Notes under the pieces: model-generated
Database searches by the model: none
Seen by the model: only the letters and a program-made list of their open reading frames with translations
Told to the model about the DNA's origin: nothing
In this document: one piece after another, positions 1,448 through 55,483 of the stretch
Layout: each line of letters starts with the position of its first letter
Position numbering within the stretch: the stretch's first letter is position 1
Program-made: the position numbers and the translations under genes
NCBI GenBank assembly: GCA_021234155.1
Contig: JAJEKV010000020.1
Span: 2,963,275-3,027,274 of the forward strand
Direction: 5' to 3'
DNA length: 64,000 nucleotides
Origin: Isoetes taiwanensis
Lineage: Eukaryota > Streptophyta > Lycopodiopsida > Isoetales > Isoetaceae

Positions 1448-2489
1448 TTCGTAATATCAAAGAATTGTGCAACAAACAGACGTGTTAGAGTGCTCAGCCA
1501 AGTAAATAGCATAAGGCTCTAACTCATAGATAGACGAGAAAAGACTTTTGCCCCGCTTCGAAATCTTTCTCTCATTGTAGTCTAGACAGATCTAGTGATG
1601 CAAGTAAGAGGCGTTTTAGCAGATAACTCTAGCTTACAGACTAGGGAAATCGCTATAGATAAAAATTCCATTTATAACACCTCATGCCACAAACATAAGT
1701 GTTCAAAACATAAAGTGTTCAAAGGAAAGCTTGGACATGGCAACTAGCTTGAATATCGAGATAGAGAACCATGTACCTTTGTCCATCCTTGAATGGATTG
1801 TCCGCAGACCTCCTCGATAGCAACCTCCTCGATAACATATACGGATACCAAATGAAGATAAACAAACTACCACCTTGTGGAGGGGTAATAGTGTGTATAA
1901 AGCATCAGTCAATATTAGAGGATTGAATGAGATTTGCACAACAGAGAACCTATCTCGAAAAGCATTTCCTCATCACAAGCTTCGATGGCTCCGAATGGGA
2001 AAGGTAATAAGTCAGCAAAATCTGTGCCATCCAAAGTTTGACCAGATTGATGTATGCGGCCGAGGTATATCTACGAGGGGATATGTCCAAGCTCTTAACA
2101 AATGAAGCTTTGTAACAAACCCTGCAAGTAGACGTCCAAAGCAATTCAAATAATAAATTTATCTGTGCAAATGCCGCAGAGCTTACTTAGAAAACCAAAA
2201 GGAAGAGCTTACCTAGAAGCTTATTTGTGCCGCTTTGTTTGTATACCTGGTCCGAGCTTGATCTTAACTTTTTTGCGTAATCCGACCGTAACTTATGCCC
2301 CATGCTGTAAATCTTGTTGCTTGCTCTCATCTTCTGCAGAATCCGCAGAGCTCCGTCCCGAGCCAAGAGTTTTTGTTGAAAAACAATTTCGGATCTCCCA
2401 TGAAGGCGGCGATGTAGCCAACGATTGAAATTACTGCAAGAGAAACCTAAAAACAAGCAAGCGCCAAAATAAAATGGGAGGCGCTAACT
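1448..2489. other. Unassigned, possibly upstream part of the LARP1 pseudogene
   Basis: Upstream (on the minus strand) of the LARP1 remnant. No further LARP1 exon could be read. A short direct repeat lies near 2176-2225 (agagcttact / agagcttacc). Short overlapping frames here have no recognisable domain and are treated as chance. Confidence 0.35.
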
Positions 2490-2718
2490 TGTGAATACAG
2501 AGTGCACAACAGGATATGGTGGAAATATGTAGTTGGGTTTTGTATTGAATGGTGTAACAAAAAGAATACAATATAGACTCAAATATATGCATTGGACAAA
2601 TGCATGCATTGGACAAATGCATGAAACGACCCGTTACTTATTGTGTCTCTTGGACACGCCGCCAGAGATCTTGTTGACAGTGGATAGCGTTACCTCATTG
2701 CCGCCGCTAATCTAACTA
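2490..2718 (-). repeat. 3' LTR of the 2.5-7.7 kb Copia element
   Basis: Matches 7254-7745 after allowing for the insertion there. It contains an extra tandem copy of a 17-bp unit (gcattggacaaatgcat) near 2589-2622 that the other LTR lacks. The inner boundary is uncertain by about 8 bp because the string taactccccat occurs both just inside this LTR and just outside the other. Confidence 0.8.
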
Positions 2719-5700
2719 ACTCCCCATCAGCCCGGACTCTAGCTGACGGCTGTCTTCTAGATATATCTTCAATTGCTCACGAAAACAGTCTAACTTATCT
2801 CGAGAGAGTGACTTTGTCAGCAAATCTGCTATCATGTCTTCTGTTGGACAGTAGAGCAAGTTAATTACTCCATTCTTTACTTGCTCTCGGATAAAGTGAT
2901 ATCTGATGTCAATGTGTCTCGTTCTTGCATGATACTTGGAAGAATAGGCTAATTCCACAAAGACTCTTGTTGTCACAATAGAGAATGGTAGGTCCTTCTT
3001 GCGGAAGCATGATTCCCCTTAGTAATTCTCTTAACCATATTACTTCTTGTCTTTGCGTATAGCGGCTATATACTCGACTTGGTTGCTTGATAGTGCAACT
3101 ATAGGTTGCTTTTTACTCTTCCAAGAGATAAGACAATTTCCCAAATAGAATATGAATGCTTGAAGTGGATCGTCTTGTATCTCGCTCTCCAAAATTAATC
3201 TGCATCACAATATCCATAAAGTTGAAATGATTCCGACTTTGGTTTTATAATTCAAAGACATAATTCTTGGTTCCTGCAATATATCTCATTATTCTTTTGA
3301 CAGCAAGCCAATGAAGGTGTCCTGGATTATTCAAGAATTGGCTCAATACTCCAACTGAATATGCTATGTCTGGCCTCGTGCACAGGGCCAAATAATTCAA
3401 GGAGCCAATTGCATGTCTATATGGGACATCCTTCATTGCATCTCTCTCTTGCTCAGTAGAAGGGGACATATCATTTGTGTATGAGATATTAGATTCCATA
3501 GGTGTTGCTGCAGGATTAGCTTGATCCATTCCAAACCTATTCAAGATATCATCAATGTAACGTGCTTGACTTAACTTCATCCATCCATTTTTGTGGTCTC
3601 GAATGATTTGGATTCCAAGGAAGTGGTGCACCTCCCCATGTCGGACATCCGAACTTCGGTGATAGTCGGCTCTTCACTTGATTAAGGAGAACAATAGAGT
3701 TTGCCAATAATAGGCAGTCATCAACATATAAGGCAACCATAACAAAGAACTCCCCCATACGGTGCACATATACATTACCATCAACAGAAGTACTCCCAAA
3801 ACCAAGACTAAGAAGGTGACCATTCATGCGATCAAACCAGGCTTTAGGGGACTGCTTCAAACCATATAATGCCTTTTTGAGTTTACACACCAAGTTCTCG
3901 TGGCCAGCCTTCACATAACCTTCTGGTTGAGCCACATAAACTTCTTCATTTAGTGTGCCGTGCAAGAAGGCAGTTTGAACGTCTAACTGATGGACCTCCA
4001 AGTTTGATTGAACCGCCATAGCAAGCAGAGTTCGAATGGATGACATACGCACCACGGGAGAAAATGTATCTGTAAAGTCAACACCAGCAATTTGTGAGAA
4101 CCCACGTGCAACAAACCTTGCTTTAAAACGCTCGACTTGGCCTGCAGCATTGCGCTTGAATTTAAATAGCCACTTGGTAGTGACCATCTTTCTTTCAGGC
4201 GGGAGGGGAGTGAGTTCCCACGTTCCATTCTTCAATAAGGAATCATACTCAGATTGCATGGCTTGTCGCCATTGCTTGGCATGGGGACCTGATAAAGCTT
4301 CTTGAACAGTTAATGGTTCTTGAGAGGCTTCATCGAGAGGCACCAAATCAATAGGTTCAGCATCTTGAATGATCATGTTCATCCATCGCTTATGGGTTCC
4401 TTGAGAAGCTTCTAATGCATCAGCCGCCTTAGAGGAAAGATAACTGATTCTGCCAGATCTAGTTGAGCCGCGATTTGGTTTATGAGGATCCACTATTGTA
4501 GGGGTACCAGCAATATGACGTTCCTTTGTCTTGTGTGATCTACCAATATGTCACCCTTGTCGAGATGAAGGGCCCGACCGGTCTGGGTCAAGAGGAGGTG
4601 GATCCGCAATATCTCCTAAGGCTTCAAAAGGGTTAAGTGCGACATCAGAATCAATAACATCATCAGAGGGATGTGGAATGGTTGCACTGGTAGAAGCATC
4701 GTCTTCTTGGGCTCCCCCAGAATCTTCCATAAAACAATCAACCAATGTCTCCAGGTTAAGGCGTCTATGCACTAGAACCTCGATCATAGGCTTGGTAAGA
4801 TCTCCATAAAATATATTCTCATTAAAGATAACATCTCCAATACGCCCAATTTGCAAGCGCCTGGTTGTGAGGTTATATAGTCGATATGCTTTGGCTTCAA
4901 GAGAATACCCCACAAAGACACATTTTTGACTCTTGTCCTCCAACTTGTGTCTGAGTTCATCAGGAATATGAGCATAGGCAAGGCACCCGAATGTGCGCAA
5001 GTGGCCAAGATAGGGCACTCGATTCTCCCACAACTGGCATGGAGTTGATTTTTGAAGAGCCGCAGTAGGTAAACGGTTTCTAAGATATGCGGCAGTCATG
5101 ATGGCTTCTCCCCAAAATTTATCAGGCATCCCAGCTAGTTTGAGCATGCATCGAGCACTTTCAACTAAAGTGCGGTTCATCCGTTCAGCAACCCCATTTT
5201 GTTGAGGTGTATAGGGGGTAGTGGATTGATGAATGATGCCATGCTCAGCACAATAATGGTCAAAACGGCTTGAAAAATATTCCCCGCCCCCATCACTTCG
5301 CAACACTCGAATTCTTCGTCCAATTTGGGTTTCAACTTCGGCCTTGAATAATCGAAACATGTCAAAGACTTCAGACTTCCTAGCAAGTAATCGCACAGTG
5401 ACAAATCTTGAGAAGTCATCAATAAATGTGAGTATGTATTTCTTCTTGCCAAGAGTCAATGTTCGCATTGGGCCACATAGATCAGAATGAATAATCTCCA
5501 ACGGACCCATGGCTCTAGTTCTTGCTCCTACAGGGAAGGGGGCTCTTTTATGTTTCCCTAAAATGCAAGCTTCGCAAAAATCTATATCATCATTGCCTTC
5601 AATAGGATCTAAACCAGTGACCATATTGGACCGGGATAAAGTTTGGAGAGCTTGCTCATGACGTGCCCCAAGCGATTATGCCACAACTTGAGATTTGATG

Positions 5701-7363
5701 GTTTGGGCTTAACGGCAAGGGCTTAAGGAGGTTCCGTAAGTGTGGCATCCAATTGATATAAGCCTTCCACTCTAGTGCCTGTGGCTGCTAGGGCTCCCTC
5801 AGCATAAGTAATATAGCACTTGTTGGAGTGAAAGGTGACATGAAAACCTGCATCAGCAATCTTACCCACAGAGAGAAGTGTCTGGGTTAAGCCGGGAACA
5901 TAGAAAACATTTTGAATCTCTTTGGGGGTCTCACCAAGGTGAACTAAGATAGTTCCTTTCCCACAGACTTGATAAGATCGACTATCTCCCACATAAACTT
6001 GTTGCTGGTTATTAAGAGGTTCATAAGTATGAAAAATCTCCCTTAATGGCATCATGTGCATAGAAGCACCAGAGTCCAGCCAGATAACCCAATTTTGAGG
6101 ATGGTTCTCAAAAGTAGATGCCATAAATAGTTTATTACCAGTTCGAGTCTCATTTTTCGAATCAGAAGAAGAAGATGGTTTACCAGGATTATTCGGTAGT
6201 CTCACGCGACAATCTCTGGAACGATGCCCAAGTTTCCCACAACGAAAACACTCCACTCTTCCATTTTGAGAGGGGCGTCTAGAATTATAAGGCGTACCAC
6301 CATCTTGCCCTTGACTCCCACGGGCAGCATAAGTACGAATTGGTTTCTGGCCAAAAACAGGTCTTCTTTTGCGCATAAAGAATGCAGCATTTTTAGAATT
6401 ACCTCCATCAGAGATCTTTATCTTTCTCTCTTCTTCCATGAGGGCAGCAACAAGGGTATCCATAGTTTGATTGGGAATGTTCGTCAACGTGGTGACAACA
6501 TGTTTATAATCAAGTGCAAGGCCTTTAAGTAATACCGCCATCTGGTCCTCCATAGAAACAATGGCGTTGACCCGATCCAATTGCACAATAAGGGAGCGCA
6601 TGCGGCTTAAATATTCAGCAATGGCTTCACTAGACTCCATCTTTAGGTCAAATAATTGTTGCTTAAGGGACAACTCACATGCCTTACCGGAGCCTCCAAA
6701 CGCGGTTAATAAAGTGCTCCAATTGTGATGTGCAGATTTTGTAAGGTCTATCAAATGCACATACTCCTCTCCAAGGGCTAAACCAATGGTGGTGAGGGCC
6801 TTACGATCCCTTTGCTCCCACTCAGAAATTTTGGCAGCCTCAACGGGTTTGGGTTCTGTCCCATCCACTACTCCCCAGGTGGCTTCTCTCCTTCTCTCAT
6901 TAGCATCAATTGTAATTTTGTAGACCAGGTATGAAAATTATGGCCAGTAAATTTTTCTAGAAACTTTTCAAGGAATTTCTCCAACCCTTGAGATGAGGAC
7001 CCAGCCATATAGTTTCTTAAGAATAAAATAAATGCCAAATAAAGGCAAATACCTGGCTTCAAGAAAAGGAGAGGCGCTCAAAAACGCTTGATCTTCTCCG
7101 TTGGCAACAACAACAAGGAAATTTGGGTCGCCGAATATAAGAACGGCGCCGCTTTTGAATGCGCTCGTTCACTCGAAGTATAGCAAGCTTGCACTTGATC
7201 TCTTCACGGCGTTGGGCCTTGCTCTTACGCGCCATACCCGACGTCTGATACCATGTGAATACAGAGTGCACAACAGGATATGGTGGAAATATGTAGTTGG
7301 GTTTTGTATTGAATGGTGTAACAAAAAGAATACAATATAGACTCAAATATATGCATTGGACAA

Positions 7364-7382
7364 ATGCATGAAACGACCCGTT
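7364..7382. repeat. Target-site duplication, left copy
   Basis: Nineteen bases atgcatgaaacgacccgtt, identical to 7654-7672, bracketing the poly(A) retroposon. Confidence 0.9.
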
Positions 7383-7617
7383 TGTCACTTTTACCTTTGT
7401 CTATCAGTATCTTCGGGAGGCATTTTAGGGTGGCATCATCGTCATGCAGGTCATGCAGGGGTTTTTTTCTTTTGATGATTTCCTCAAATGGTGTCTGTCT
7501 CTACCTTCATACTTGGGGTTTGAGTACTTGTGCTGATACGGTTAGGCTATCTGGCTACTATGGAGCCATCAATAAATGTATTTATTACATATTATTAATA
7601 AAAAATAAAAATATCTT

Positions 7618-7653
<36 letters not shown>
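7383..7653 (+). mobile_element. Poly(A) retroposon or 5'-truncated LINE copy inside the LTR
   Basis: A 271-bp insert ends in a run of about 30 A (7624-7653) and is flanked by a perfect 19-bp direct repeat, atgcatgaaacgacccgtt, at 7364-7382 and 7654-7672. The uninterrupted site is seen in the partner LTR near 2620. A poly(A) tail with a long target duplication is the mark of LINE-driven target-primed reverse transcription. The insert has AATAAA-like strings before the tail (near 7574 and 7599). It has no protein homology I recognise, so it is either the 3' end of a LINE, a SINE, or a retroposed transcript end. The exact duplication shows it arrived after the Copia element. Confidence 0.88.
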
Positions 7654-7656
<3 letters not shown>

Positions 7657-7672
7657 CATGAAACGACCCGTT
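7654..7672. repeat. Target-site duplication, right copy
   Basis: Identical to 7364-7382; directly follows the A run. Confidence 0.9.
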
Positions 7673-7799
7673 ACTTATTGTGTCTCTTGGACACGTCAGC
7701 AGAGATGCGCTGACAGGCAGATAGCGCTGCCGCTAACTGCTAACATAACTCCCCATAAGGAAATCGCCTAAAAAAACAAGAACTGCCATGCTTTTTGAA

Positions 7800-8225
7800 A
7801 ACCAAATCCTATTCCGGAATACAAAGTGTATTCCAGAATAAGATTCCCTATTTCTTTTTGAACCAATATCCTGTATCCCTAGTCCCCACAAAACAAACCA
7901 AACAATCCTTTTTTTATTTATACCACGATCCTGTATCTCTCCCAAAAAACAAAGATCCCAAGGTTGTTGGTTTGTATTGCTCTTTCGCTAATCCCTTGAT
8001 GATCTAGAACTATGTTCATGTTTCAATTGAAACCAAAAGATTGCAAGGTCATTGAAAATCCGGAAATTTGGAAAATTGCAAGATCACTGTTGATTCTCAA
8101 AAACTTGTACAGCAAAAATGTATTCCGGAATACACTTCGGATTTCGAGCAAAACCAAAAGTGTATTCTGGAATACACTTTGACTTTCAAAAAAAAGTAAA
8201 AGTGTATTCCAGAATACACTTCTGT
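7800..8225. repeat. Cluster of 18-bp palindromes (GTGTATTCYRGAATACAC)
   Basis: Palindromic copies centre near 7815 (tattccggaata), 7833, 8127, 8168 (gtgtattctggaatacac) and 8210 (gtgtattccagaatacac). The last three are 41-43 bp apart, embedded in a longer AT-rich unit with aaccaaaag-like flanks. A further copy is at the window start (25-42). They are too regular to be chance. They may be a degenerate satellite or clustered protein-binding sites. The stretch from 8226 to 8620 holds no gene I can see and would be the 3' flank of the histone-like frame. Confidence 0.75.
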
Positions 8226-8623
8226 TATTCTCTAATGGTAAAAGTGTCAATTTTGGTACTTTAAAATATTATATCATTAAAAAATGTCTCATTGTAACCT
8301 AAAAGTACGTTTTCTGGAAAACGATCCAAGCTAACAAAATGTTGTGTAGGACGTACACTTAAATTAGTGGTTTTCTCAAAAAACACACTTCAAGTAAATT
8401 CTATCTGTTAGGAAAAGTGTCACTTTGACATAGTCAATTTTCTCTTTGCACAAAAAAATGAGTGATTTTGGGGGGGTCAAAATACATTTTTATGACAAAA
8501 ATAAAATTTTTACCCCATTTTAGCTCTTTTTTGGGAAAAAAATGGAATCTTTGAGGAATATTCCGTTTGCTCCCATTTCAATGATTTGCTCCCGTTTCTA
8601 TTGCAACTCTGTTGGTCGCATAA

Positions 8624-8947
8624 TCACCGAAACTCCCCTCGAATCCTCCTGGTAAGCTGGAGGTCTTTGGGCATTATGGTAACCCTCTTTGCATGGATGG
8701 CACAGAGGTTGGCGTCACTCAAAATCTCTATGAGGTAAGCCTCGGCTGCCTCCTGGAGTGCGAGGATAGCAAAGGCCTGAAACCTCAGATCGGTCTTAAA
8801 TTTTTGGGCAATCTCCCGGACAAGCCGCTGGAAGGGTAGCCGGCGAATCAATGGCTCAGTAGTCTTCTGATACTTACGTATCTCGCGAAGAGCTACTGTG
8901 TCCGGTCGGAACCTATGGGGCTTCCTTGGCTTGACCGTTGAGCAATT
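8624..8947 (-). CDS. Histone H3 core-domain frame (C-terminal part), probably a fossil
   Basis: An open stretch of 107 codons ending in TGA encodes an almost complete H3 histone fold. Reading order: [20 protein letters not shown] (alpha-N), then [20 protein letters not shown] (alpha-1), [20 protein letters not shown] (alpha-2), and [20 protein letters not shown] followed by RRIRGEFR (alpha-3 and C-terminus). Loop 1 has the normal H3 length, unlike most CENH3. Departures from canonical plant H3 include TEPLIRR, QKFKT, the AFAIL region, LIEILSDA and the EFR end. No canonical H3 tail (ARTKQTARKS) lies upstream. Instead a basic frame and an unrelated protein precede it in the same orientation. 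It could be a divergent H3 variant, an H3 captured by a mobile element, or a retrocopy. The fold is clear; expression is not shown. Confidence 0.85.
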
Positions 8948-9119
8948 TCAAAGCAATCTGCTCTCGTCGCTGAGCTGACGTCTTCTTTCCAATTTGGGCA
9001 TCCTTCTGAAGCCGGGTCTTGTAATTGACTCCTCCCCTCACAGGTTTTGTATTCTTCCTCTTCCTGTTACCCCACTCCCTATCCGAAACATCATTTGGTG
9101 CTACCTCCTCTTGTACCAC
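8913..9119 (-). CDS. Short basic frame between the unknown protein and the H3 core
   Basis: A 68-codon open frame with no ATG at its start, overlapping the neighbouring frames at both ends. It is rich in K and R ([33 protein letters not shown]) and so resembles a histone-tail-like or nucleic-acid-binding linker. I do not recognise a family. Its [16 protein letters not shown] stretch resembles KSKAQRREEIKCKLA in the leader frame of the Copia element at about 7235-7059, which may be coincidence. It probably belongs to the same ancestral transcription unit as its neighbours, which now lie in more than one frame. Confidence 0.45.
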
Positions 9120-9862
9120 ATGTTGATCTCCTGATTCACATTTTGATCAACATTTTGATCAACCTGCTGATCAACTTGCTGGTCCCCCTGCTGGTTTTGA
9201 GCATCCTCCTCTTCCTTACGGAGCCTCTCCTTCTCAGCATCCCGGGCTTCCTTGTTCAAGCGCACTTGTACTCGTCTGGCGATCTCCGTATGGTACCAGG
9301 CCGGGTGAGCTCGCATGTCCTTGCACAAGGTCCAGGCGATCTTGTGTGAAGGTAGGGGGGGGACATTTTCAAAAACGAAGCTATAAAGTTCTTCATTCCA
9401 AAAGAAAGTAGGAAGATTGTAATGGTCCCTGTACATAAGTACATGGCCTTTACCAAGGTAATAGAAACGGGCAGCCCGCTCCTCTAGTAGGCCGCTAGCT
9501 ATTTGCTGAAGGTCTTCTACCCTAGCAAGGAGCTGAATCCATTTGGCCTCCGTCCGGATAAGTTCAGCGGGATCCTCCTCTTGGCCGGCTTGTGGATAGA
9601 ACTTAACAATGGCCCAGGCTTGGTCAGGCTGCTCTACAAGGGTGTAAGGTTGGTCTGCAGCATTTAGCTTCATGAGGAAGCGGTCATTGAAATGGAAAAT
9701 GGGGTAAGGGATCCTACGGCCCTCAGTGAAATGAACTACAAGGAGGTCCAGAACAGTGTCAACCATAGGGCTATCACCTGAGAGATAGTCTACTAGGACT
9801 CTAAACAACTGAAAGACAGTCGCCTTGTTTAGGTCCACGGCGAGCTTGAAGCGCGGCATCAT
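9101..9862 (-). CDS. Unrecognised 253-aa protein with charged coiled-coil C-terminus
   Basis: An ATG-started frame (MMPRFKLAVDLNKATVFQLF...) of 253 codons. The first ~190 residues look globular, with hydrophobic and aromatic segments (HYNLPTFFWNEELYSFVFEN; KIAWTLCKDMRAHPAWYHTE). From about residue 200 comes a charged helix (RLNKEARDAEKERLRKEEED) and then a Q/D repeat (DQQVDQQVDQNVDQNVNQ) caused by an imperfect ~12-bp repeat, gat-caa-nnn-gtt, near 9130-9185. The upstream sequence (9863-10060) contains aaaaccctagcgcc, typical of plant 5' leaders. I cannot name the family. It lies in one orientation with the basic frame and the H3 core, and downstream of an LTR with a primer site. It may be the gag-like or accessory frame of a non-autonomous LTR element. 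Confidence 0.6.
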   Translation of the reverse strand: MMPRFKLAVDLNKATVFQLFRVLVDYLSGDSPMVDTVLDLLVVHFTEGRRIPYPIFHFNDRFLMKLNAADQPYTLVEQPDQAWAIVKFYPQAGQEEDPAELIRTEAKWIQLLARVEDLQQIASGLLEERAARFYYLGKGHVLMYRDHYNLPTFFWNEELYSFVFENVPPLPSHKIAWTLCKDMRAHPAWYHTEIARRVQVRLNKEARDAEKERLRKEEEDAQNQQGDQQVDQQVDQNVDQNVNQEINMWYKRR

Positions 9863-10534
9863 GGCACTGGTGATGGCTAACAAGAGAGGAGAAGTAGGGC
9901 GCTCAAGCTTAGACAAGTGGCGCTAGAGGGTAGGCGAAGGCGCTAGGGTTTTAGGGTGGTTGCAGGGTGGCAGTAGAGGTCAGCTATGGCGGAAAAGGAG
10001 CTCTAGTCCGGCGGCTATGGCGGAAGAAAGTCGTGCAAAGAAACACACTTTTCAAAAAGTGACTCAAATTTGAATTTAACTTTTAACTTTTTATTAAAAA
10101 TTTTCAAAAAAAAAAAAAAAAAAAAAAGGCGTAAAAATACGCTGGGACCGTATGGGGCCAAGGAATGGCGTTATACGCTCCTAACTCTTCGAAAGAAACA
10201 CCTCGGACGACAGCAGCGCCCCTTTCGACTTTTCGGCCTGCTGTTGACTTTCCGCCCTCGGGAGACGTGCCCCCTAGGGTATTTGGGAGGTGCCCGATCC
10301 GTTGGAGCCATTTTCGCCTCCATTCGAGCTACCTACAAAAAGTTATGGTCCTTTCAAACTTGGGTCCTCCAGTCGCCCTAATCTTCTTAGAAAACTTACA
10401 ATCTATTACATTGACCTAGCACAAAACCAAACATCAAAGAGCTAAACAATCCCACTAGCTTAAACTCCCACCTAACTACCGAGCTAGCGAGTTAGGGTTT
10501 GGTCAGTGCTATGATTTCGAGCAACCGAAATCAC
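9863..10534 (-). other. Leader region between the primer site and the unknown frame
   Basis: Read on the minus strand this runs from the primer-binding site to the 253-aa frame. It holds a homopolymer (22 A on the plus strand, about 10107-10128) and GC-rich sequence (10130-10330) without a sustained open frame on the minus strand. It resembles the long untranslated leader of an LTR element, but could be two joined pieces because of the A run. Confidence 0.4.
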
Positions 10535-10547
10535 GGCTCTGATACCA
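10535..10547 (-). other. Primer-binding site (tRNA-Met type)
   Basis: The minus strand reads TGGTATCAGAGCC one base inside the LTR edge at 10549. This is the standard initiator tRNA-Met complement used by many plant LTR elements. Confidence 0.7.
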
Positions 10548-10548
10548 C

Positions 10549-11599
10549 TGTGACGCTCCCTGAACATATACGACACTCGGACGTATACGTACGGGGACTT
10601 TCCCCTTCCATGGCAACCAACTCGCCACGAGCAGGGCCCTCCGTCTAACTCGGGCCATCTATAGAGAGATGCTCGAGTGAAGGACACAGAGGGGTCATTC
10701 GGCCCACACCTTCAATGGGGCTCTTATGTCGCGGAGGCGTGAATACAAGGTTAGCACACAGCATAATCATATCATAAAATACCACCACGAAGGGTGGCAC
10801 ATCCATCCGACTGACAACAACAAAGAAGATGCATTTAATACTAGGGAGAACACCCCAAACCCATGGTTCTATCCCGGCTCAGACTCCAGTGAGGATCGAC
10901 TGACGGCTAGGTCTCAAGAGATCAGCAGACCGAATCTTGGCATGGCATTGGCTGGCATAGAACATTGGCTAGGGTTGTCCACTCCATCCGCCCCTCCTGT
11001 GCACACTTTGCAGATGAGTCGAATCATGCTATGGCATCACTATAGCCTTCCGGAGACGCAGACTCAAGGTATCACCTTCGAGCCTACTCCAGGGTTCATG
11101 AAGCCCTGGTCCGATGAGGCAGGTCGGGGAAGTGTCCCCTTCCAGGATCACAGCGATTCCATGGGTGAGCTAGAGAATATGTGCCGCATCAGCGACCCCC
11201 GCATCCATACCCGACTTACTCACCCTAAATCTACTCAAAGTACATGATGCCCCATACGGGTCACACCTCTGCACCCAGGGAGTGTCAGACCCATACTCGG
11301 CCCTCTACGTGACCGGCTATCAGGCCTAGCCCACTGTAGGAGTCCCAGGAGCCTTGTATGTTCGTGCAAGACCCCACCCCCACTTCACCACTGTGTCCCT
11401 TCTCTGGTGCTAAGCAATCCCATAGCATCCATGACTCGGTGGTCTCTTGTGCACAGGCCGCATTAATTGGGAATTAAAGGAGCTACTAGGAGCATATTAA
11501 AGCATAAGGCACAGAGGTCTCTACCCCCCTCTAATCCCTGCTTTACAGAAGGCTAACAGAAATACTTTCATAGATTCATCCATCCATTCATAATAAACA
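10549..11599 (-). repeat. Unpaired LTR with tRNA-Met primer site (LTR-retroelement fossil)
   Basis: On the plus strand the segment begins TGTGACGCTCCC and runs to AATAAACA, where a Helitron end abuts. Next to its left edge, 10535-10547 reads ggctctgatacca, the complement of the initiator-tRNA-Met primer site TGGTATCAGAGCC. That makes this the 5' LTR of a minus-strand element whose interior lies to the left (10.5 to about 8.6 kb). The family is probably Gypsy-like, judged only from the TGTGACG start. No second LTR was found in the window, so the element is incomplete. Its right edge may continue beyond the inserted Helitron. Confidence 0.6.
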
Positions 11600-11628
11600 C
11601 TAGAAACGTGTGCCCGGCGATGCCGGGC
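11600..11628 (-). mobile_element. Helitron 3' terminus (hairpin plus CTAG)
   Basis: On the minus strand a perfect hairpin (gcccggc-atc-gccgggc, 11628-11612) is followed 8 bases later by CTAG (11603-11600) and then T. This is the canonical Helitron 3' end (hairpin, CTRR, insertion before T). The body must extend to the right. Its 5' TC end was not located, and the hairpin sequence differs somewhat from that of the two Helitrons at 36.7-43.2 kb, so it may be another subfamily. Confidence 0.7.
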
Positions 11629-14600
11629 ATTATTCGAGCACGTGGGGGATGTGTTTACGGTATTAGCTTTTGCAGTGCTAAAAACACTTTACCATTATAT
11701 CATCTCTGTAGGTGAAGAATAAATAGCATTTTATCACTGCAATTAAAGAGATATAGGAAATGGGATGAGAATTGTATTTTTTTTTTTGTTGTAAGACTAT
11801 CAATTAGTCTTCTAAAAAGCATGTAGGCCTTGGCATCAAAGAAGCGATTGTTAATAGCAATAAAGTGTATGAAACAAATGTTAACCTCCCATATATGAAA
11901 CATGTCCAGTAAGCACTTTGAAAAGGAGCGCAACACAAAAGGCATGACATTGATATGTGATATGCCAAAGTACACCATACAATAGATAATGCCAATAAAA
12001 AAAAGTTGTTCGATGAGCATGATCCAATCCAAAATAAGCATGTATAATGATGATGAATTAGTTGAATGTCTTGAATGGGTTTGGTGATGCAGGTCATTAG
12101 AATGCCAGAGACTGGAAATACTATCCCTCCAAAGATGGGATGCTAATTTTTAAGCACGCATAAACGCTGATTATAGAACATGGAGAACATCAAATCATAA
12201 TTGAACTCATGCAATAATATAACCTAAAAATCACCATGAAGTGTAAAAATGGATTTTTTAATGAAGATGCAGCAAATGATCTAATGTCCAACATTTTTTA
12301 TGACTGCTAATAGGTACCCTCAAAGATTGAACATAACGCAAACCCTAATTTAAAAGTAAAAAGACAAATCTTGTTCAACATCGATTCCATAACATCTTTC
12401 TAACATGAGGGTATAGATTAGAATACTACAAATAGCACTTAAAAAAGACTTAAAGGACATAAATGGACGCAAGGAGTCACCGATATGTTAGCTTCAAAAG
12501 TGCTGCATTCTAATAGATGTCCAAAAGTTTTCATAAGCTAGTAATTGTGTGCTATTGCCGCAAATATCCAAGCGAAATTATACATGAAATTATATAAACA
12601 TCATCAAGTGAACCACCCTAGTTGTAAATACGCTACAACCAACTTATCATCATACAGAACTGTAATTTTGCGAAAGGCAAGCATGATTTATACATGTTAT
12701 GTTCGAGAGAGCAAAGCAAAAATTGTTAAGTCTATCTCCGCCATTCATGTCCAATTACCAAAACTATATTCCGACCAAAGCAGCAATCTGGGCAAGATCT
12801 TATGGTTAAATACTGGTACTCTAGAGATAAGAAGCTCCATTCCAAAATGTGCAGAAGGCAATATCAAGTGCAATTGCTAATGATCAGCAACCTTATATCC
12901 ATAACTTGGGAAGCACAACCCGCAGACCTATAGGATTGGTCAAAAATAAGAAAAACATGAGTTTTAGCTGTGTTTATGGAAAATAAGCTCACAGAATCAA
13001 ATCATAAGATTGATGTCAAAAAAAGATAGATAGCAACCTCTATGTCCCGAAAGTGAAAGCAAGTAGAATGGATGACAAAATCCTTGATTGAGTAATAGCA
13101 GTCTATGTGTGCAGATGGTAAGGCAAGTACCTTTGATAATGATCTAAAATAAATAGTCTTCTACTCTAGTTGATGCAAGTATAATCAACATCCTCATTAT
13201 TATCAGTCATAGCAGAATTCATTATCATTATCCTATTTGTCAAAGGGGCAAAAGCACTCTCTGTTAATAAAAGTGTGAAACAGAAGATACAAATAGTAGG
13301 CTATTCACATTTAAAATACAGAAAGACATGGCAGAAAATTAGCAGCCGGGCAGAGTCTGGGTAGAGTAATGGTCTGCACATGATTGGTCCTCCTTATCTC
13401 TTGATGAGATGAGCCTATCCTTGGATAAATTTACAGTCTTATTCTCTTTAACATCTATGTCTATTGCCTGGATAAATTCACAGCCTATTCCCTTTAATAT
13501 CAATTAATATCAACTTTTTGAGTGTTTGTCTTGGGTGGCATTCATTCAAGCACATGCAGATCTGGTTACCATAGATGAACAATACAAAGGTGTTTATCAT
13601 CTATTCTATGACCTATAAAGATACAGGTGATTTAATCTTTTACTAAAGATCATGACTTGCATGCCACGAAATTTGTATTTCTCATCACATCTACTTGAAA
13701 ACTAAATCATGCTGAAACATTTTGTCACTAAGTCTTGCCCACTACCCAAAAAACATAAATATCGAATGAGATCATAAACCTTAAACTACAACCATATATT
13801 TTGCCAAGAGCAGAATACTTTGAGAAAAGGCTTTACCTCAATGGCATACACTTGAATGTCCAACAATTACAAATGTATATCCCTGCTCAAAGATGTGTAA
13901 CCTGTAGCATTTTTAATGCATAAACGAAATTGCTAAATAAAATATAGCATATCTACATGCATACCTATGACACAACTTAAGGTATCAAGAAAAGAAAATG
14001 AAGATACCTCATCCAAAAAATGTAACACTTGAATCGAGCCCATGTAATGGCCTCCACAGGCAAGTCTAGAGACAATAATGGATTGGGGAGGCTTCAAACT
14101 GGCATTTGAAAGAGCATTAAATGCAACTTAATGAACAAAACTTAGACGTTTTCACATAAACATGATACTGAAATGATTTTGAACATTTTATTACCCTATG
14201 AGGAAGATGGAAAACATATCTGAAAGCACCTCTTGGAAAGTGCATACTAACTTTGCTGCAAGTCATTCAATGGAGAGAAAATCCACAAAGTCAATTTACA
14301 TTTCAGCATTATAAATAAGACCTCTAAGCTCACAAAAACTTAAGACTTAAAGACAACATAAAACTTACATGATCTATCATGCTGCAACTGCGCTTTTCAA
14401 TTTGGCGCCTTCAAAAGAGTAAAACAGCCAGCCCTTTAGTCACTGCTAATTTGAGTTGCAAAATACATCATTAACAAAGAATAAACATTGTCGATTTAGA
14501 AGCTATGTAAACTCAAGCCACAAATAAAGGCATAAAATTCCTGGACAAACCAAGGCCTTGCCTTTTTAAATAAGAAGATAATCAAATTATACCACAGAAT

Positions 14601-31732: not shown

Positions 31733-31870
31733 ATTTAGCAACATGCATAGTCATGCCATTCAGGTAAATCACCATAAAATTTCTTGTCTATCACTGCCAT
31801 GGTGCCACTGCTTTCCTTATCAACCTCCTTGAGCTCTAGATAATTATGCAGAACTTCTTCCAGAAGAATT
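31733..31870 (-). pseudogene. FCP1/NIF-like gene, downstream piece split off by the LTR insertion
   Basis: Read on the minus strand directly across the LTR element's 5-bp target duplication (gaatt on the plus strand), the frame WFSI from 34581-34600 continues here as LLEEVLHNYLELKEVDKESS, GTMAVIDKKFYGDLPEWHDY, ACC-stop. The continuation in phase indicates that one exon was interrupted. After this the homology cannot be followed. See 34581-35230 for the domain. Confidence 0.6.
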
Positions 31871-33018
31871 TATAACACACCTAGGGGGTTGAGGAATAAG
31901 TAAATAATTTTCTTAACCTCAGGTCAGGAATATTTAAAAGAATTGCAACGGTTGGGAAACAAATTGAATACGGGTGTCTATACTAAGGTACGGTAGGTAT
32001 CTGAGGAAAATAGAGGTAATATCTGAACTAGAATAGCAGATCTATGATTAGAGGAGATAAACTAGATAAGAATTTGTAAGAATAGGAAGATATTTCATAT
32101 AATTGGAAAGGAGAGGATGTTTTTCTAATTTTAGAAAAGACGGATAGTATAAAAAAGGGGAAAAATTTAAAACATGATAACTTGGCGAGCGATTATCAGA
32201 ATGGAGCAATCTTAAGCGTTCTGGAAAGCTCTCAGAGTCTAGTTTCAGAATTGGTGTGGCATGTCTTCTAACTCCTTACGGTTAGAGAGATATCGTAGAA
32301 AAGGTGGACAAGGGTCAGATAAGACGGCATGTGGAAGATCCTTTGGTGGATAGCCAGAGCCGGATCTTTGGAATTTCTGTTGGTTTGGAGTTATCTTTTA
32401 TTTTGCTTAGTAGTTTGTCGAAAAGCTTACATGTTTTATTTTGTTATTGATTCTTTGTGTTTGTGTTTGTGTTTGCAAATATAATAAAACATTAAAGAAT
32501 GAACCTGTATGACAGAACTCGCCCCTTTATCGTTGCCGAAGGGCTGGGCGGTAAAGCAACGTGCATACCAGGTGATTGGTATGTGGACGTATAGTCGTGT
32601 CTGAAACGATATACGTGTGAACCTGGGTGAGGGATTGATCATCCCTGAATCACAGTAAGTTATAAGAAGATGTTCTATGCGTGACTAACATTTGTGTGCC
32701 TATTGTGTGTGACTAATGATTCGCCTCAGGTTAAGGTAATGGTTTACCCACTTAGTCCTTCCCAGGACTAACCCCACCTTCCTCTTCTTCCTTCTTACAG
32801 ACAGAGTTAATAGCTAAGTGAGTTTTGCGCCGCGAGAAGCATGGGATAATAGCTTAAATGTCAAGGCATAGATTTTCTAAAGACTATGAGTAGTTTGAAA
32901 CTCGGATTTCGAGTGTCAAGGACCATTGTTACCGCATAATAAAAGAAAGTTGTATATTATTGTTCCAATTACTTCTCTGTTTGATTTTCAAGTGTTAAAA
33001 CGCCTTAGGAGCGTTTCA
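31871..33018 (+). repeat. 5' LTR of the short LTR element
   Basis: 1,148 bp, ending ccttaggagcgtttca; partner 33437-34580. Confidence 0.93.
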
Positions 33019-33436
33019 TTTGGTATCAGAGCCTAGGCTTCCGATTATTAAGCATAGTTGGTTATTGGGCCAAAGACAATTAGAAGTCATCAATATTGAA
33101 ATGATGAGAAACCAAGAAGGAAGAAACTCCTTGGGGAAGTTATGCAGCCGAGACATCTAGTCGTGGCCAGCAACGGGAAAAGGAAGAATTCAAAATTTAG
33201 TTTTCACATTCTAAACCTACCTAACTGTGAAGTCCCCAAACATTAGTAGTCATCCAAATTAATCTTAAATGTTGTAGTGGCAAGTGTAGTCAACCCCGAA
33301 AGGTGTATGGGAACATAGCTTTAGATATGTCTTGTACCTTGGATATCTTGGCTCATCTATAGAAATTAATGACTTGCAAGGAATTTACAAGATTATCCCC
33401 ATGAGGACATGGGTAAATTTTTAGTATGAGAGAAAA

Positions 33437-34580
33437 TGTAACACACCTAGGGGGTTGAGGAATAAGTAAATAATTTTCTTAACCCCAGGTCAGGAATATT
33501 TAAAAGAATTGCAACGGTTGGGAAAAAAATTGAATACGGGTGTCTATACTAAGGTACGGTAGGTATCTGAGGAAAATAGAGGTAATATCTGAACTAGAAT
33601 AGCAGATCTATGATTAGAGGAGATAAACTAGATAAGAATTTGTAAGAATAGGAAGATATTTCCTATAATTGGAAAGGAGAATAGATTTTTCTAATTTTAG
33701 AAAAGACGGATAGTATAAAAAAAGGGGCAAACTTTAAAACATGATAACTTGGTGAGCGATTATCAAAATGGAGCGATCTTAAGCGTTCTGGAAAGCCCTT
33801 GGAGTATAGTTTCAGAATTGGGGTGGCAGCGCTCCTATATATCTCCTTACGTTTAGAGAGATATCACAGAAAAGGTGGACAAGGGTCAGATAAGACGGCA
33901 CGTGGAAGATCCTTTGGTGGGTAGCCGGAGCCGGATCTTTGGAGTTTCTGTTGGTTTGGAGTTATCTTTTCTTTTGCTTAGTAGTTCGTTGAAAAGCTTA
34001 CATGTTTTATTTTGTTCTTTGTGTTTGTGTTTGCAAATATAATAAAACATTAAAGAATGAACCTGTATGAAAGAACCCGCCCCTTTGTCGTTGCCGAAGG
34101 GCTGGGCGGTAAAGCAACGTGCATACCAGGTGATTGGTATGTGGACGTATAGTCGTGTCCGGAATGATATACGTGTGAACCCGGGTGAGGGATTGATCGT
34201 CCCTGAATCACAGTAAGTTATAAGAAGATGTTCTATGCGTGACTAACATTCGTGTGCCTATTGTCTGTGTGACTAACGATTCGCCTCAGGTTAAGGTAAT
34301 GGTTTATCCACTTAGTCCTTCCCAGTACTAACCCCACCTCTTCCTCTTCTTCCTTCTTACAGACAGAGTTAATAGCTAAGTGAGTTTTGCGCCACGAGAA
34401 GCATGGGATAATAGCCGAAATGTCAAGGCATAGATTTTCCAAAGACTATGAGTAGTTTGGAACTCGAATTTCGAGTGTCAAGGACCATTGTTACCTCATC
34501 ATAAAAGAAAGTTGTATATTATTGTTCCAATTACTTCTCTGTTTGATTTTCAAGTGTTAAAACGCCTTAGGAGCGTTTCA
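33437..34580 (+). repeat. 3' LTR of the short LTR element
   Basis: 1,144 bp, beginning tgtaacacacctaggggg and ending ccttaggagcgtttca, followed by the target duplication gaatt. Confidence 0.93.
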
Positions 34581-35573: not shown

Positions 35574-36190
35574 TTAAGGGATCAATCCATGTTTTTCCAC
35601 GTATTTAACAAGGTGTGGTTCTATGTCAGCCGTTCTATCCAGTTCTGGGTATGAATATAACACTTCACCCACCGTCATCCCCATAGCCAAATTATGCATA
35701 ATAGACACAAACTTCACCAGAAAATCATCTGTCGCAAAGTTTTTTGGATCGTAAGATGGTGGATTCAGGGCCTGCGTTTGATTGTAGAAGCATTTGAGAG
35801 CATCATCATCCACTATGATTATATCATCCTTATTCTCGATACCAAGTTCGTCCATCATGTTACTCAAGTGTTTGATGAAGATAGGCTTGCCTGTTGGATC
35901 CTTGGGATTAGTGAACTTCACACATTTGTTCTGATCCCAAAAGGTCAACCAATGTCTACGCATTTCCCCCAGTGCCTCCAAAGTATCCTCGATGTTCCTT
36001 AGTTCCATGGATGACCAAATACCAACTCGAAATAACCTGAATGCCTCATCTAGCATCTCCTTTGCGGCCGCGGATAGATCCACTTGGTGTTTGATTCTAC
36101 TGGTGTCTGATGAAACTGATCTCTAGCCACTTTATTTTTCGGAAAAGTCTTGCAAAGGACTCCGTTTAGGTCGAACACCACAACCTTCTT
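35574..36190 (-). pseudogene. FCP1/NIF-like HAD phosphatase-type domain, copy 1
   Basis: After an intron-like TTTCTAAG the minus strand reads KKVVVFDLNGVLCKTFPKNK, VARDQ..., KWIYPRPQ, then (one base out of phase, near 36065) AKEMLDEAFRLFRVGIWSSM, ELRNIEDTLEALGEMRRHWL, TFWDQNKCVKFTNPKDPTGK, HLSNMMDELGIENKDDIIIV, DDDALKCFYNQTQALNPPSY and a stop at 35574. The DLNG strand, WSSM, FWDQ-C and IIIVDDDALKC-N-QALNPPSYDP elements match plant FCP1-like NIF domains in the right order; D-L-N-G replaces the canonical DLDET. Domain length is near normal. The one-base shift disrupts the frame unless an unseen intron is used. It lies just upstream of the more decayed copy 2 in the same orientation. Confidence 0.82.
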
Positions 36191-43851: not shown

Positions 43852-45120
43852 AGGAAGGAAGGAAGGAAGGTACTTTTATCGTCCACGGAGACGCAGCAAG
43901 CGGATTACTGCCCGGATTAAAAAACCCCGCCCCGAAGGGTTTTCGAGGGAAAAACCGTGGCAGCAATCAGCCTGCTGACAAACTGTGCTAATCATATAAA
44001 ATGCAGAAACATCCCAATATATACAGTCATGCACCACCCCCGTAGTGCCTAGTCGGTGGACAAACGGTGGGGGCAAAGGTGACCTCGCAGTCCGGGACCT
44101 CCCGGATGTATGACCCGGTGGCACGTCGACGGCGGTGTGTTCACCGGCAAATGCAAGGGCACGTCCGGCCGCACTAAAGGGAGCGTGTCGCCCGGATCCG
44201 AGCGAACGCCGGGCAACTCGGAAAGTGTGAGACTCATCCTCAATGGCACCCGCTTGACAAAGACCGACAGAGCACATCTGGCGGGGCTCCCCAATCCACC
44301 TGCCGCCTCTCGATCACGAAGATGGTGGGCACCGCGTGCGAATGGAGGCAATGAGTCTGCGCTTTTTTTACAACCGGGAACGCAGGTAGAGTTTGTGGGC
44401 CCGGGCTAACTTCTGGGTTGATGTGCTCCTTGTAATGGGCCATTTTGACTGCTCTAGAGCAATGGGGTCCCGAGCTTGCCAAGGAAACAAGCATCTAGGT
44501 ACTCCCGCGGTCATGCCACGATCGGCCCATTGCGCCCGGTATCGCATCTGTGCTCTCGCATCGTTCCATCTGGCGAACCAGCGATCTCTCTTACCCCTCC
44601 AACAGGCCCTAAGCGGCTGCGGACTCATGACCCGCGGTGTAAGCCCGGTCGCGGGGGCCGAGCATCACCCATAGTAACCACTTTCTGAAAATAGGCGATG
44701 TGTCTATCAAGGGCTGCCGCCCGGCGGCGGCAGAATCCGGTTTCTGCAGCAGAGAATCGATAGGGGTGAAGGTTTCACCCAAGTGCCCGTGCCAAAAATG
44801 CCTTCTCACCTACTCCAAGTCATTCGAGTTCGCCAAAGAGGCGACCGGGCCCCAAACCTCGACCGTCTGAAGGGCCGGGCTCGACCGGTGCGGAACAGAT
44901 GTGGTGATGGCCCCAATCATATAGCTCTGCGCACGGTATTTTGTTGTTACATGGCATAAAGCGCTTTCCAGCCTGCTATCACCCACAAGCGGATAGACGC
45001 CTCCCAGCAGAGCGAGGAGGGGAACTCCACCCCTAGGTACTTGTAGGTGGGCGTGACGTCCACAGGCTGTCCCCGATATGTGAGTGCAGGAGGCATGGGG
45101 TGACGTGAAGAGGATATGAG
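43852..45120 (-). mobile_element. LINE (non-LTR retrotransposon) 3' part, 5'-truncated
   Basis: GC-rich for this window. On the minus strand the frames give TYKYLGVEFPSSLCWEASIR (45055-44995) and GWKALYAM, the post-catalytic part of a LINE reverse transcriptase (family pattern YKYLG-F...GWKA-Y). Next come RWFARWNDARAQMRYRAQWA (44590-44530) and LCQAGAIEDESHTFRVARRS (44265-44205), the C-terminal cysteine/histidine motif (family pattern C-LC-GE-EDE-HFL--C). The reverse-transcriptase catalytic core is absent, so the copy is 5' truncated, as is usual. At least two frame changes and several stops separate the pieces. The 3' end carries a (CCTT)n tail (43852-43871) rather than poly(A). Confidence 0.72.
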
Positions 45121-49832: not shown

Positions 49833-50688
49833 TGATGAATTTAGAGGCAAAGAGTATGATTTTGCAAGTGTAATAACAAAATGCCTAGCAAGATTTTCAA
49901 AATTCAAGATCTACATAAACACATGTAGTACAAGTGAGGATTTAGTGGAGAGCCACAATATGGTCTCTCATCTCCACTATTGTAAACTCAATAATATAGG
50001 AAACAAGAAACAAGTTTTAATGGTCAATAAACCATTAGCCTTAAATCTTCACAAAGATATAATGAGTTTACTGTTCATCGGGCATTGACCCGATTACTGT
50101 AGCTCATTTGACTTGAGCATTTCGCGTTCTACTGAGCCGGATCTGCTTCATAACTTCGTCACACCATCTGTTCTCACAGGTTCCATATTCATAGTTGTAA
50201 ATCCGGCGGTTAAGGGACAGCTCCACTTTCCTATCCGGGTCTATTTCCATGTCTGCATATATCCCACAGGATAAACGTAAGTAAAAAGACTGGTTCACAA
50301 TATCCCACAGGAACGTTGATAAAAATCGGCTTTGGAACCATTGAGGCTTATTCTTCGAATTAATTTGCTTTCTTCTTCAACCTTAACCATGGTTGCACTA
50401 TTTGGTTCTCAACCTTCAATGAACAATTTTGCTAGCACTTAACAGAGAATTTATCATCACTGCTGTACCCTAGGTAATTAGATAATTCTCAAGTTTTTCT
50501 GGCCCACTGCCACTGCTTCTCATGGGCAGACACATTGAATTGTTTAAGTTTTCATGCAGTATAGGTCACAACATTCTGCAACTTGTGAGTTCACTTGGAT
50601 CACTGTCTGCTCACTTGCATTCTAAAAGCAATCACTGCCACTGCTTCTCATGATTGCAATATAGACTTATAAAGCTGAAAACTTATCA
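49833..50688 (-). repeat. 3' LTR of the young Copia element
   Basis: 856 bp, TGATGAATTT...ACTTATCA, nearly identical to 55484-56339. Contains the short internal repeat actgccactgcttctcatg twice (about 130 bp apart). Confidence 0.95.
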
Positions 50689-50842
50689 CTCCTCCTTCAG
50701 CTTATAAGTCTGTAAATTAGAGACATTCAATTCACCCTTAAAGTACACATACTTATTTTCTGGCAGTGCCTTAGTAAAAATGTCTGCAACCTGTTTATTG
50801 GTTTCAATATACTTCATATTGATTATCTTCTTGTCAGCAAGA

Positions 50843-53800
50843 TCACGTATGAAATGCTATATGCTTGGTCCTGTCATGATGCACAGGGTTCTTCACAATT
50901 GCTATGCAGCTCTGACTATCTGTCCATATGTCAGTAGGCTCCATTTGTTCACAATACAATTCATTTAGTAATCTTCTTAGCCATACCACCTCTTTGGACA
51001 CCAATGCAGCTGCTGCATATTCTGCTTCAGCTGAACTCATGGCTACTGCAGCTTGTCTTTTACATCTCCAAGACACTACTCCTCCTCCAAGAAATATTGC
51101 ATACCCTGAAATAGATCTTCTTGTATGCAAGTCACCTCCCCAATCTGCATCACTATAACATTTCATAATTAGATTTTCTGAGTTAAAGCAAATACCATGT
51201 GCTTGAGTGCCTTTGAGATATTTCAAGACTCGTTTGGCTGCCTCCCAGTGTTCTCTGGTTGCATTGTGATTTCTCCTGCTCAGTATATTGACTGCATAAG
51301 CTATGTCAGGTCGAGTATTATTTGCTAAGTATAGTAAACATCCAATTAATGCTCTGTAAGGAATGTTTTCCATATCTGCAATATCTTCTTCAGTTTGATT
51401 TTGTATTTGAGTTAACCTATGTCCTGGAGTCATTGGAATTTTTGTTGGCTTAGCTTCTGACAGGTTGAATCTATTTAGCATATTCTGTATATGATTCTCT
51501 TGATACAGCCTTAGCCATTTTTGCTCTCTATTTCTCATCACCTCTATACCTAGGAATTTTTTTAGTTCACCTAGGTCTGTCATTTGAAACCTTGACTTCA
51601 AAATATTCTTGCATAAGTTTAAGATTTTGGTTGAGCTAGCCACCATAATGCAACCATCCACATATAATGCAATTATGCAGTATTCTTCTCCTTGCTTAAA
51701 TCTATACAAGTTGCCATCATTCTGCAACTTCTCAAATTCCTGTTCTTGCAAGAATTGGTTCATACAGAGATACCATTCTCTTGGTGATTGCTTTAATCCA
51801 TATACAGCCCTATGTAATTTCCATATCATGTTTTTCCCTTGCTCAAAACCAGGTGCTTGTTTCATAAATGCCTCCTCCTCAAGTGTTGCATTTAAAAATG
51901 CTGTTTTGACATCCATATGGTGCAATTCTAAATTTAGAGCATTTGCCAGGGCCAATAAAATTCTGATACTTGTGAGCTTTACAATGGGTGAGTAGGTTTC
52001 ATCATAATCTCTACCTTTTTTCTGAGTGAATCCTTGAGCTACTAATCTTGCCTTGTATTTCTTGCTCCCATCTGGATTACTCTTGATTTTGTAAAGCCAT
52101 TTACTCCCTATGATATTCTGCTTTCCATCAGATTTTACTAATTCATATGTTTTGGTGTCCTCAAATGATTTAAGTTCATCTCTCATAGCAGCCATCCATT
52201 TTTCTTTGTCTGTACTCTCCAAGACCTCTTCAAAAGTTTGTGGTATAATTTCATCTTCTAGAATTGACAGAATTTGTTCATGCTCTACTGCTTCAATACG
52301 TTTGCTTTTGCCTTGTTCAGTTCTGCCATAAGGTTTATCCTCTAACTTTGCTTCTTCAATTAATTTTTTTGCTTGTGTTTTCCTTTTCCTTCTAATCTTG
52401 GTTGGCTCATGTATTTCTTGTCTTGGTTCCTGTATTACCTCAGGGACTTGGTGTTCAACTTCTGCTGCAGGTGCTTGAACCTCTTCTTCCATTGTCTTTT
52501 CCAGTGTATGATGCTCATTTTCTTCATTATGGACAGCCTGCTCAATCTCTTCTGAATCTTCTAGCTCATCAGTTTCAAATTTAGCCATTTGCTCAGTAAT
52601 TTTGGGTACAATTTTAATCCCTTTTCTGTACCTGTGCTTATACAATACACCCTCATTGAAAAGAACATCTCGACTAATTATTATAGTCTTTGTTTCTGGA
52701 TTATATACTCTATATCCCTTAGCTTCATTGTCATAACCCACCAGGAAACCAATATCAGCTCTATTGTCTAATTCTTTTCTTAATTCTGAAGGGACATGAG
52801 TATATACCAAACAACCATAGACTTTATATTTTAAGTAGTCTATTTTTCCTTTAGCATTCCAACTGTTTGGTATATTTCCATGAAGAGTGGAGGAGGGCAG
52901 TATGTTCTGAATTTCTATGGCAGTTTGCAAAGCTTCCACCCAAAGGCTATTTGGTAAGCCACTTTCCTTCAACATGGACCTAATTGCATCCATAATTGTT
53001 CTGTTTTTTCTTTCTGACACCCCATTTTGTTGAGGAGTGTATCTGCACGTTAATTGCCTTTTAATGCCATGTGTAATGCAATAGGTTCTGAATTTTATTG
53101 ACAAATACTCTCCACCACGGTCTGATCTAATGCATTTTAACTTGTGGCCTGTTTCCCTTTCCATTTCTGCCACATATTGTTTGAATGCATTTAAGGCTTG
53201 TGATTTCTTTTCTAAGCAATATGCCTTACACTTTCTACTGTAGTCATCAGTAAAGGTTATGAAATACCTTTTGTTACCTCTTCCTCTCACATTTAATGGG
53301 CCACATAAGTCTGAGTGCACTAATTCCAATGTTTGCTGAGTTTTAGATTGTCTTTTAGCAAATGGCAGCCTGTGGAATTTTCCTAGAGCACATCCTTCAC
53401 AGATATGATTAACTTTGCTGTCACAATAATCAATGAGGCCTTGTTTATGCAGACTTTCCAGTTTCTTGTAATCTGTGTGTGCTAATCTATTGTGCCATAA
53501 TTCTGCACCAACTTCAGAAATTGCATTTACACCATAATGCACAAGATTACTTAGTTCAAACAAGTTGCCAACTCTTTTAGCATAAAACTTCAATTCATTT
53601 TTGAGAAAGACATTACATTGTTCAGCCTCAAATGTCACCATATATCCCAAATCACATAACTGGCTTACTGAAATCAAGTTTTTGATTATTGCTGGAACAC
53701 ACAATACATCTTCAATATTTACAATACTTCCATTTAAGTCTTTTAACTGCAAAAGTCCACTCCCTTGAATATCTTGCAATGCCCCATTTCCAACTTGTAT

Positions 53801-54577: not shown

Positions 54578-54769
54578 CTCCCTAGGGCTGAGAAACCCAA
54601 GGGGGGTTCACTCAATGGTCACGTACGTACCAACTGAGTGAACTTTTAGGGTTTTTTTATTGCCTTGGTCGTAGGTATACGGTCGGGAGCTCATACGGGC
54701 GGGAAGGAGAGATTCCGTAGATGATCGATTTGGGGAGCTGATCCATTTGACGGAAAAAGGTACAAAGTC

Positions 54770-54900
54770 GGAAAGGGATTATATAATTTGGCACAAAAGG
54801 TACACAAAAGGTACAAAAGTCGGAAAGGGATTATATAATTTGGCACAAAGGGTCTTCACAAAAGGTACAAAGTCGGAAAGGGATTATATAATTTGGCACA
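54770..54900. repeat. Three tandem ~45-bp copies in the Copia spacer
   Basis: aaaggtacaaagtcggaaag (with ggattatataatttggcaca following) occurs three times between about 54765 and 54900, in the spacer between the gag start and the long frame. Confidence 0.88.
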
Positions 54901-55001
54901 ATCAATCGTAAATCTACGGATAGGGTATAGATTGTATGTTAGTTCGAAAAACCGTATGGTATGGGTTTTTCTACTCCAAAAAGCCGTATACATGGGTTTT
55001 T

Positions 55002-55460: not shown

Positions 55461-55483
55461 GATTGAGATGGCTCTGATACCAC

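Follow-up and report, generated by a model that had tools for sequence, protein, structure and literature searches.

On the minus strand of the window (the whole 64,000-nt stretch of DNA that was analysed), the inner edge of a putative LTR is followed by a primer-binding site, a leader, a long open reading frame of no assigned family (ORF A), a basic stretch (stretch B) and a histone H3 core. The order begins at 10549 with GGGAGCGTCACA-G-TGGTATCAGAGCC and continues to lower coordinates. The putative 5' LTR (10549-11660) is seen only by its inner edge, which reads GTCACA at 10549, and the primer-binding site 1 nt beyond it is an exact 13-mer, TGGTATCAGAGCC (10535-10547), which we take to be of the tRNA-iMet type. 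The 672-nt leader (9863-10534) holds a 22-nt T run at 10106-10127 and the motif CCCTAAAACCCTAG near ORF A. ORF A (9104-9862, 253 aa) is marked by its open frame and codon bias, and stretch B (8916-9146), a basic linker or tail, lies in a different frame from both ORF A and H3. The H3 core (8624-8947) extends from alpha-N to the C-terminus with its stop codon, and is assigned by PF00125 and by identity to H3.3 and H3.1. The original prediction had proposed this order and these motifs, and we recovered primer site, leader, ORF A, basic stretch and H3 in that order and on the same strand. The arrangement is real and unusual.

The 13-mer TGGTATCAGAGCC occurs four times in the window. Two of the other copies, at 33021(+) and 55482(-), lie 1-2 nt past the ends of LTRs that have partners in the window (31865-33018 with 33431-34580, and 55484-56337 with 49833-50686), which verifies a primer site just past an LTR end as a local arrangement; no paired LTR was identified for the copy at 29842(-). 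The copy upstream of ORF A (10547-10535) begins one base past a CA edge, so that here too a primer-binding site is found directly past an LTR end in CA (10535-10549), as in LTR retrotransposons. Within 690 nt upstream of any one start, 0.03 primer sites on the same strand are expected by chance, counting the three minus-strand sites of the window with the present one among them; this figure is suggestive only. No partner for the LTR edge at 10549 was found in the window by blastn or shared 13-mers, and we therefore class the locus as a truncated remnant and do not count it as a full LTR element. Between the H3 stop and 7772 there are four purine runs of 9-10 nt, none of them a polypurine tract before an LTR start, and neither a TATA-type motif nor AATAAA was found in the putative LTR. 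A 12-bp near-inverted repeat, TGACACTCCCTG/CAGGGAGCGTCA, offers an alternative LTR start at 11287 instead of 11660. Scans of the window for tRNAs (bacterial code) and against Rfam gave no match. We also considered a plus-strand retroposon ending in an A run at 10106-10127, and rejected it because the bases after the run share no direct repeat of 8-14 nt with 8001-10107.

Maximum-likelihood segmentation of 7771-14000 by GC content placed change-points at 8591 and 11660 (gain 91.3; in 11 other, partly overlapping stretches the gain was 7.8-40.9 in ten and 95.3 in one). The block between them has 50% GC, with flanks of 32 and 34%, and it extends at its lower end 33 nt past the H3 stop. By these change-points the unit seems to reach a little beyond the H3 stop on one side and, on the other, about 1.1 kb past the primer site, this last stretch being the likely LTR. 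A block of 50% GC that spans all of the parts between AT-richer flanks favours one inserted unit. Against a single unit weigh an 80-nt patch of 15% GC inside the block and an uneven CpG content (observed/expected 0.49-0.93 outside that patch).

Judged by its sequence, the identity of the H3 core is beyond doubt. It matches PF00125 with E=5e-42 (143 bits), and the best solved chain, 7ux9_E, named H3.3, aligns with E=1e-49 and is ungapped across 99 residues. Identity is 80/99 (81%) to this H3.3 and the same 80/99 to the H3.1 of the next chain, with 19 differences in each case (the plant label of both chains rests on residues 41, 87 and 90, the search giving no organism). The core thus has the histone fold, an H3-type alpha-N and a gap-free alignment with H3. 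Residues R63, R83, H113, K115 and D123 are kept. The window H3 combines F41, an H3.1 sign of vascular plants, with L90, an H3.3 sign, and positions 87-90, the alpha-2 chaperone site, read FAIL. Ferns are the first plants in which H3.1 has Phe41 (PMC5809374), and the DNA thus probably comes from a vascular plant. Aligned with the H3.3 tail, the basic stretch upstream of the fold scored no better than shuffles did (P=0.42); we therefore rejected a canonical H3 and class the sequence as an H3 core, and the earlier view of a well-preserved H3 fold that does not have the canonical tail holds. A CENH3 was rejected as well: CENH3 has a longer loop 1, and the window H3 shows no loop-1 insertion relative to H3.3 and is 81% identical to ordinary H3. 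Confidence of the predicted structures is low (pLDDT 44.0 for ORF A alone and 57.5 for H3 alone).

Relatives of the H3 core were looked for in two large collections. A close-relative scan of IMG/VR confirmed none (18 pattern matches in one scan, 95 in another), and nine of 94 pattern matches in GTDB MAGs were H3 loci, which we read as eukaryotic contamination. One of these loci, L006, is only 54% identical and has a CENH3-like loop-1 insertion; its contig is filed as a Flavobacteriales MAG and is likely eukaryotic contamination. No further copies of ORF A, stretch B or H3 were found inside the window. The tree proposed with the original prediction could be run in part, using (as did the site counts below) six of the nine GTDB loci, the other three (L007-L009) being interrupted or partial. 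The nearest rows to the window H3 were H3.3 and H3.1, and none of the six forks was well supported.

The H3 core is free of stops and indels. Relative to H3.3, its 19 replacements have a mean BLOSUM62 score of +0.47, compared with -0.42 in a neutral simulation that started from H3.3 rather than from the host's own H3 (P=0.015; P=0.005 jointly with the absence of a stop). Five codons need at least 2 nucleotide changes, where the simulated mean is 1.1 (P=0.004). Such conservative, multi-step replacements would speak for a long divergence during which the protein was kept. Against this, six other H3s show no variation at 9 of the 18 sites where the window H3 differs from both plant forms, the changed sites show no enrichment for variable sites (Fisher P=0.60), and the tree branch of the window H3 measures 0.23 vs 0.00-0.07 in seven ordinary rows, with only the outlier L006 longer. 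Because half of the changed sites are otherwise invariant and variable sites are not preferred, the constraint on this H3 is altered or relaxed and not simply maintained.

ORF A opens with an ATG at 9862 and runs for 253 codons free of stops, with a GC content of 0.625/0.312/0.561 at codon positions 1/2/3. Its predicted product is acidic (pI 5.6), with a C-terminal charged stretch and VDQ repeats. No relatives were found in Pfam or NCBIfam, nor in IMG/VR (0 pattern matches), GTDB (23 pattern matches, 0 confirmed) or plasmids, the last three scans reaching close relatives only, in collections that do not include plant genomes. PHROGs gave one weak match on the charged stretch (E=0.046) and the PDB one non-significant match (E=0.5). 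None of ORF A, stretch B and H3 matches gag or pol in Pfam. Stretch B (9146-8916) is the sole stop-free frame of three across about 9100-8950, and a codon-usage scan trained on ORF A and H3, with B excluded, ranked its frame top in all six segments of 9140-8901, in one of them narrowly. It is basic (pI 9.9 as a whole, 11.2 in the tail part), and by eye it continues from the VDQ repeats of ORF A into the basic stretch. GC at third codon positions is 0.56, 0.60 and 0.62 in ORF A, B and H3, respectively, vs 0.30-0.47 in the six other ORFs measured; the low second-position GC of ORF A is absent from B.

ORF A and H3 share one frame and B lies in another, as expected from the earlier suggestion of a fossil with about two breaks. 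The common frame makes a single ORF with two compensating breaks the simplest reading, and two compensating frame shifts, introns or assembly errors within one ORF would be the simplest account of it. The further claim that the parts once formed one unit fared less evenly: the common GC block, the similar GC3 and the shared frame of ORF A and H3 agree with it, and no second LTR of the locus was found in the window.

We tentatively explain the locus, with somewhat less than even confidence, as the remnant of a vascular-plant LTR retrotransposon, non-autonomous and now truncated at its 3' end, that encoded a fusion of H3 to a domain of no assigned family. This reading is favoured by the primer site at its CA edge, the GC block, the frame shared by ORF A and H3, the bridge formed by B, the similar GC3 and the gap-free, conservatively changed H3. 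It is weakened by the missing second LTR, polypurine tract, TATA-type and AATAAA motifs and gag/pol, by the low pLDDT and by the second-position GC of B; the changed H3 sites that are invariant elsewhere also weigh against it, since they fit decay or relaxed constraint. We infer that ORF A and H3 made a single protein and that the element owned them; the ownership rests on composition, order and the primer site. The element's one sense ORF, since disrupted by two mutually compensating frame breaks, would have encoded a fusion protein made up of a mainly acidic domain of ~200 aa with no assigned family, a charged stretch, a basic linker and an H3 core, the last taken from a host H3 gene with its modifiable tail replaced. 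The H3 core may have paired with host H4 and been loaded by host chaperones into chromatin, where it would anchor a fused Gag-like or accessory domain to nucleosomes. Anchoring of this kind, the most likely use of the fusion protein if it was made, might aid nuclear retention or the choice of integration sites. Alternatively, deposition of a tail-less H3 could evade tail-based silencing by forming local chromatin that does not have the K4/K9/K27 tail sites used for silencing.

The main rival explanation, which we consider rather unlikely, is that a host gene or pseudogene of H3 type, divergent and with an unusual extension at its N-terminus, lies next to an LTR fragment that has nothing to do with it and stops within the leader. 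It would account for the LTR edge at 10549 having no partner and for CCCTAAAACCCTAG next to ORF A, presumably a telo-box-like motif of plant gene promoters; the AT-rich patch with the 22-nt T run (10051-10130) could be the junction. However, the LTR edge, leader, ORF A and H3 lie in a common GC block, no LTR start or end motif occurs between 10535 and 9862, and the chance expectation for the primer site is low (0.03). A chance neighbourhood of ORF A and an H3 retrocopy, never one gene, agrees with the frame breaks between ORF A, B and H3, but we hold it to be most improbable in view of the same strand, the same net frame, the stop-free basic bridge and the like GC3, and by eye no poly(A) run directly follows the H3 stop.

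It is also possible, if distinctly unlikely, that the locus goes back to an ordinary one-off gene capture, in which a host A-H3 fusion gene or H3 transcript was transduced by an LTR element, stayed at low copy number (one or few) and served no function for the element. Plant genomes commonly contain host genes captured by LTR elements (672 in rice, 1343 in sorghum and 424 in maize; PMC3726574), and transduced genes tend to be sense-oriented and of low copy number, with one copy or a few (PMC7264820). Yet the 19 replacements and five multi-change codons, accompanied by neither stop nor indel, suggest a long separate evolution as an open frame, and the H3 tail is no longer recognisable.

None of the literature matches listed, as far as their titles and the openings of their abstracts go, reports a plant LTR element that carries a histone, and the main texts of PMC3726574, PMC7264820 and PMC11963269 do not contain the word "histone". 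Chromatin terms are over-represented among LTR-captured genes (PMC3726574), and an earlier case of a captured histone may stand among the genes in the supplementary tables of that study, the main text being the part covered here. From our comparison, the single H3s of DNA viruses appear to be the nearest parallel to the window H3. They are found in xenomavirus, Dishui Lake phycodnavirus, Sylvanvirus and others, and are 73-87% identical to host H3 in the fold (window H3 81%); three of six have extended tails, one of six has a highly divergent tail, and the chaperone site on alpha-2, FAIL in the window H3, is SAIL or TAIL in three of six (PMC9145170). Their carriers are DNA viruses and not LTR elements, and the N-terminal part at the window locus is an ORF of 250 aa with no assigned family. 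Orf1 of the nudiviruses HzNV-1/2 resembles the A-H3 arrangement in its long unknown N-terminal part and C-terminal histone folds, but that protein, from an insect DNA virus, is 1111 aa long and its folds are an H4-H3-like doublet with 30-40% identity (PMC9145170). The word "retrotransposon" is absent from the main text of this viral-histone review.

Among LTR elements, orchid Ty3/gypsy elements with an ORF for an ALKBH-like demethylase likewise combine a plant retrotransposon with an acquired host-type domain, although they are 25 kb long, retain gag-pol and carry an RNA demethylase (PMC9289625). LTR retrotransposons of bdelloid rotifers have captured third ORFs, host- or virus-derived, but these are env-like, esterase or exonuclease genes beside gag and pol (PMC5408684). 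The plant TRIM, LARD and TR_GAG elements share with the locus an LTR edge and primer site without pol; the passages compared from PMC6696364 mention no histone, and the window locus differs in having no second LTR. By analogy, the integrase chromodomain of chromoviruses is likewise encoded by the element and tethers it to chromatin containing H3, but the chromodomain reads histone marks and is not itself a histone (PMC9289625, PMC12786077). The broadest form of our interpretation, which we regard as unlikely, is that some plant LTR retrotransposons form a family with a core histone of its own: a tail-swapped H3, fused to a Gag-like or accessory protein, that is loaded into host nucleosomes so as to direct integration or withstand silencing. 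If true, retrotransposons would have a new way of dealing with host chromatin, by supplying H3 themselves, and the histone capture seen in DNA viruses would have a counterpart in LTR elements. Even as a fossil, the locus provides a precise query for the genomes of ferns and other vascular plants.

Several further features were observed in the window. Downstream of H3 on the minus strand, a copia-type element at about 2485-7770, split over several frames and with RVT_2, has a 117-nt identical LTR stretch, and the AT-rich DNA just past the H3 block (7800-8240) contains by eye a repeated palindromic motif like GTGTATTCCGGAATACAC. The LTR pair at 31865-34580 (about 1.15 kb, 93% identical, primer site at 33021(+), 412 bp between the LTRs) is a TRIM/LARD-like element. 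The element at 49833-56337, copia-type by eye, has LTRs that are 99.6% identical over 854 nt and a polyprotein frame of 1254 codons; its CpG observed/expected is 0.06 in the coding part vs 0.43 in the LTR. A GC-rich block (58%) at 43881-45105 has no Rfam match, and two ORFs in it have no Pfam match. At 35577-36122 lies an exon similar to NLI-interacting-factor phosphatases (PF03031), the only piece of a host gene recognised besides H3 among the 13 ORFs checked with Pfam.
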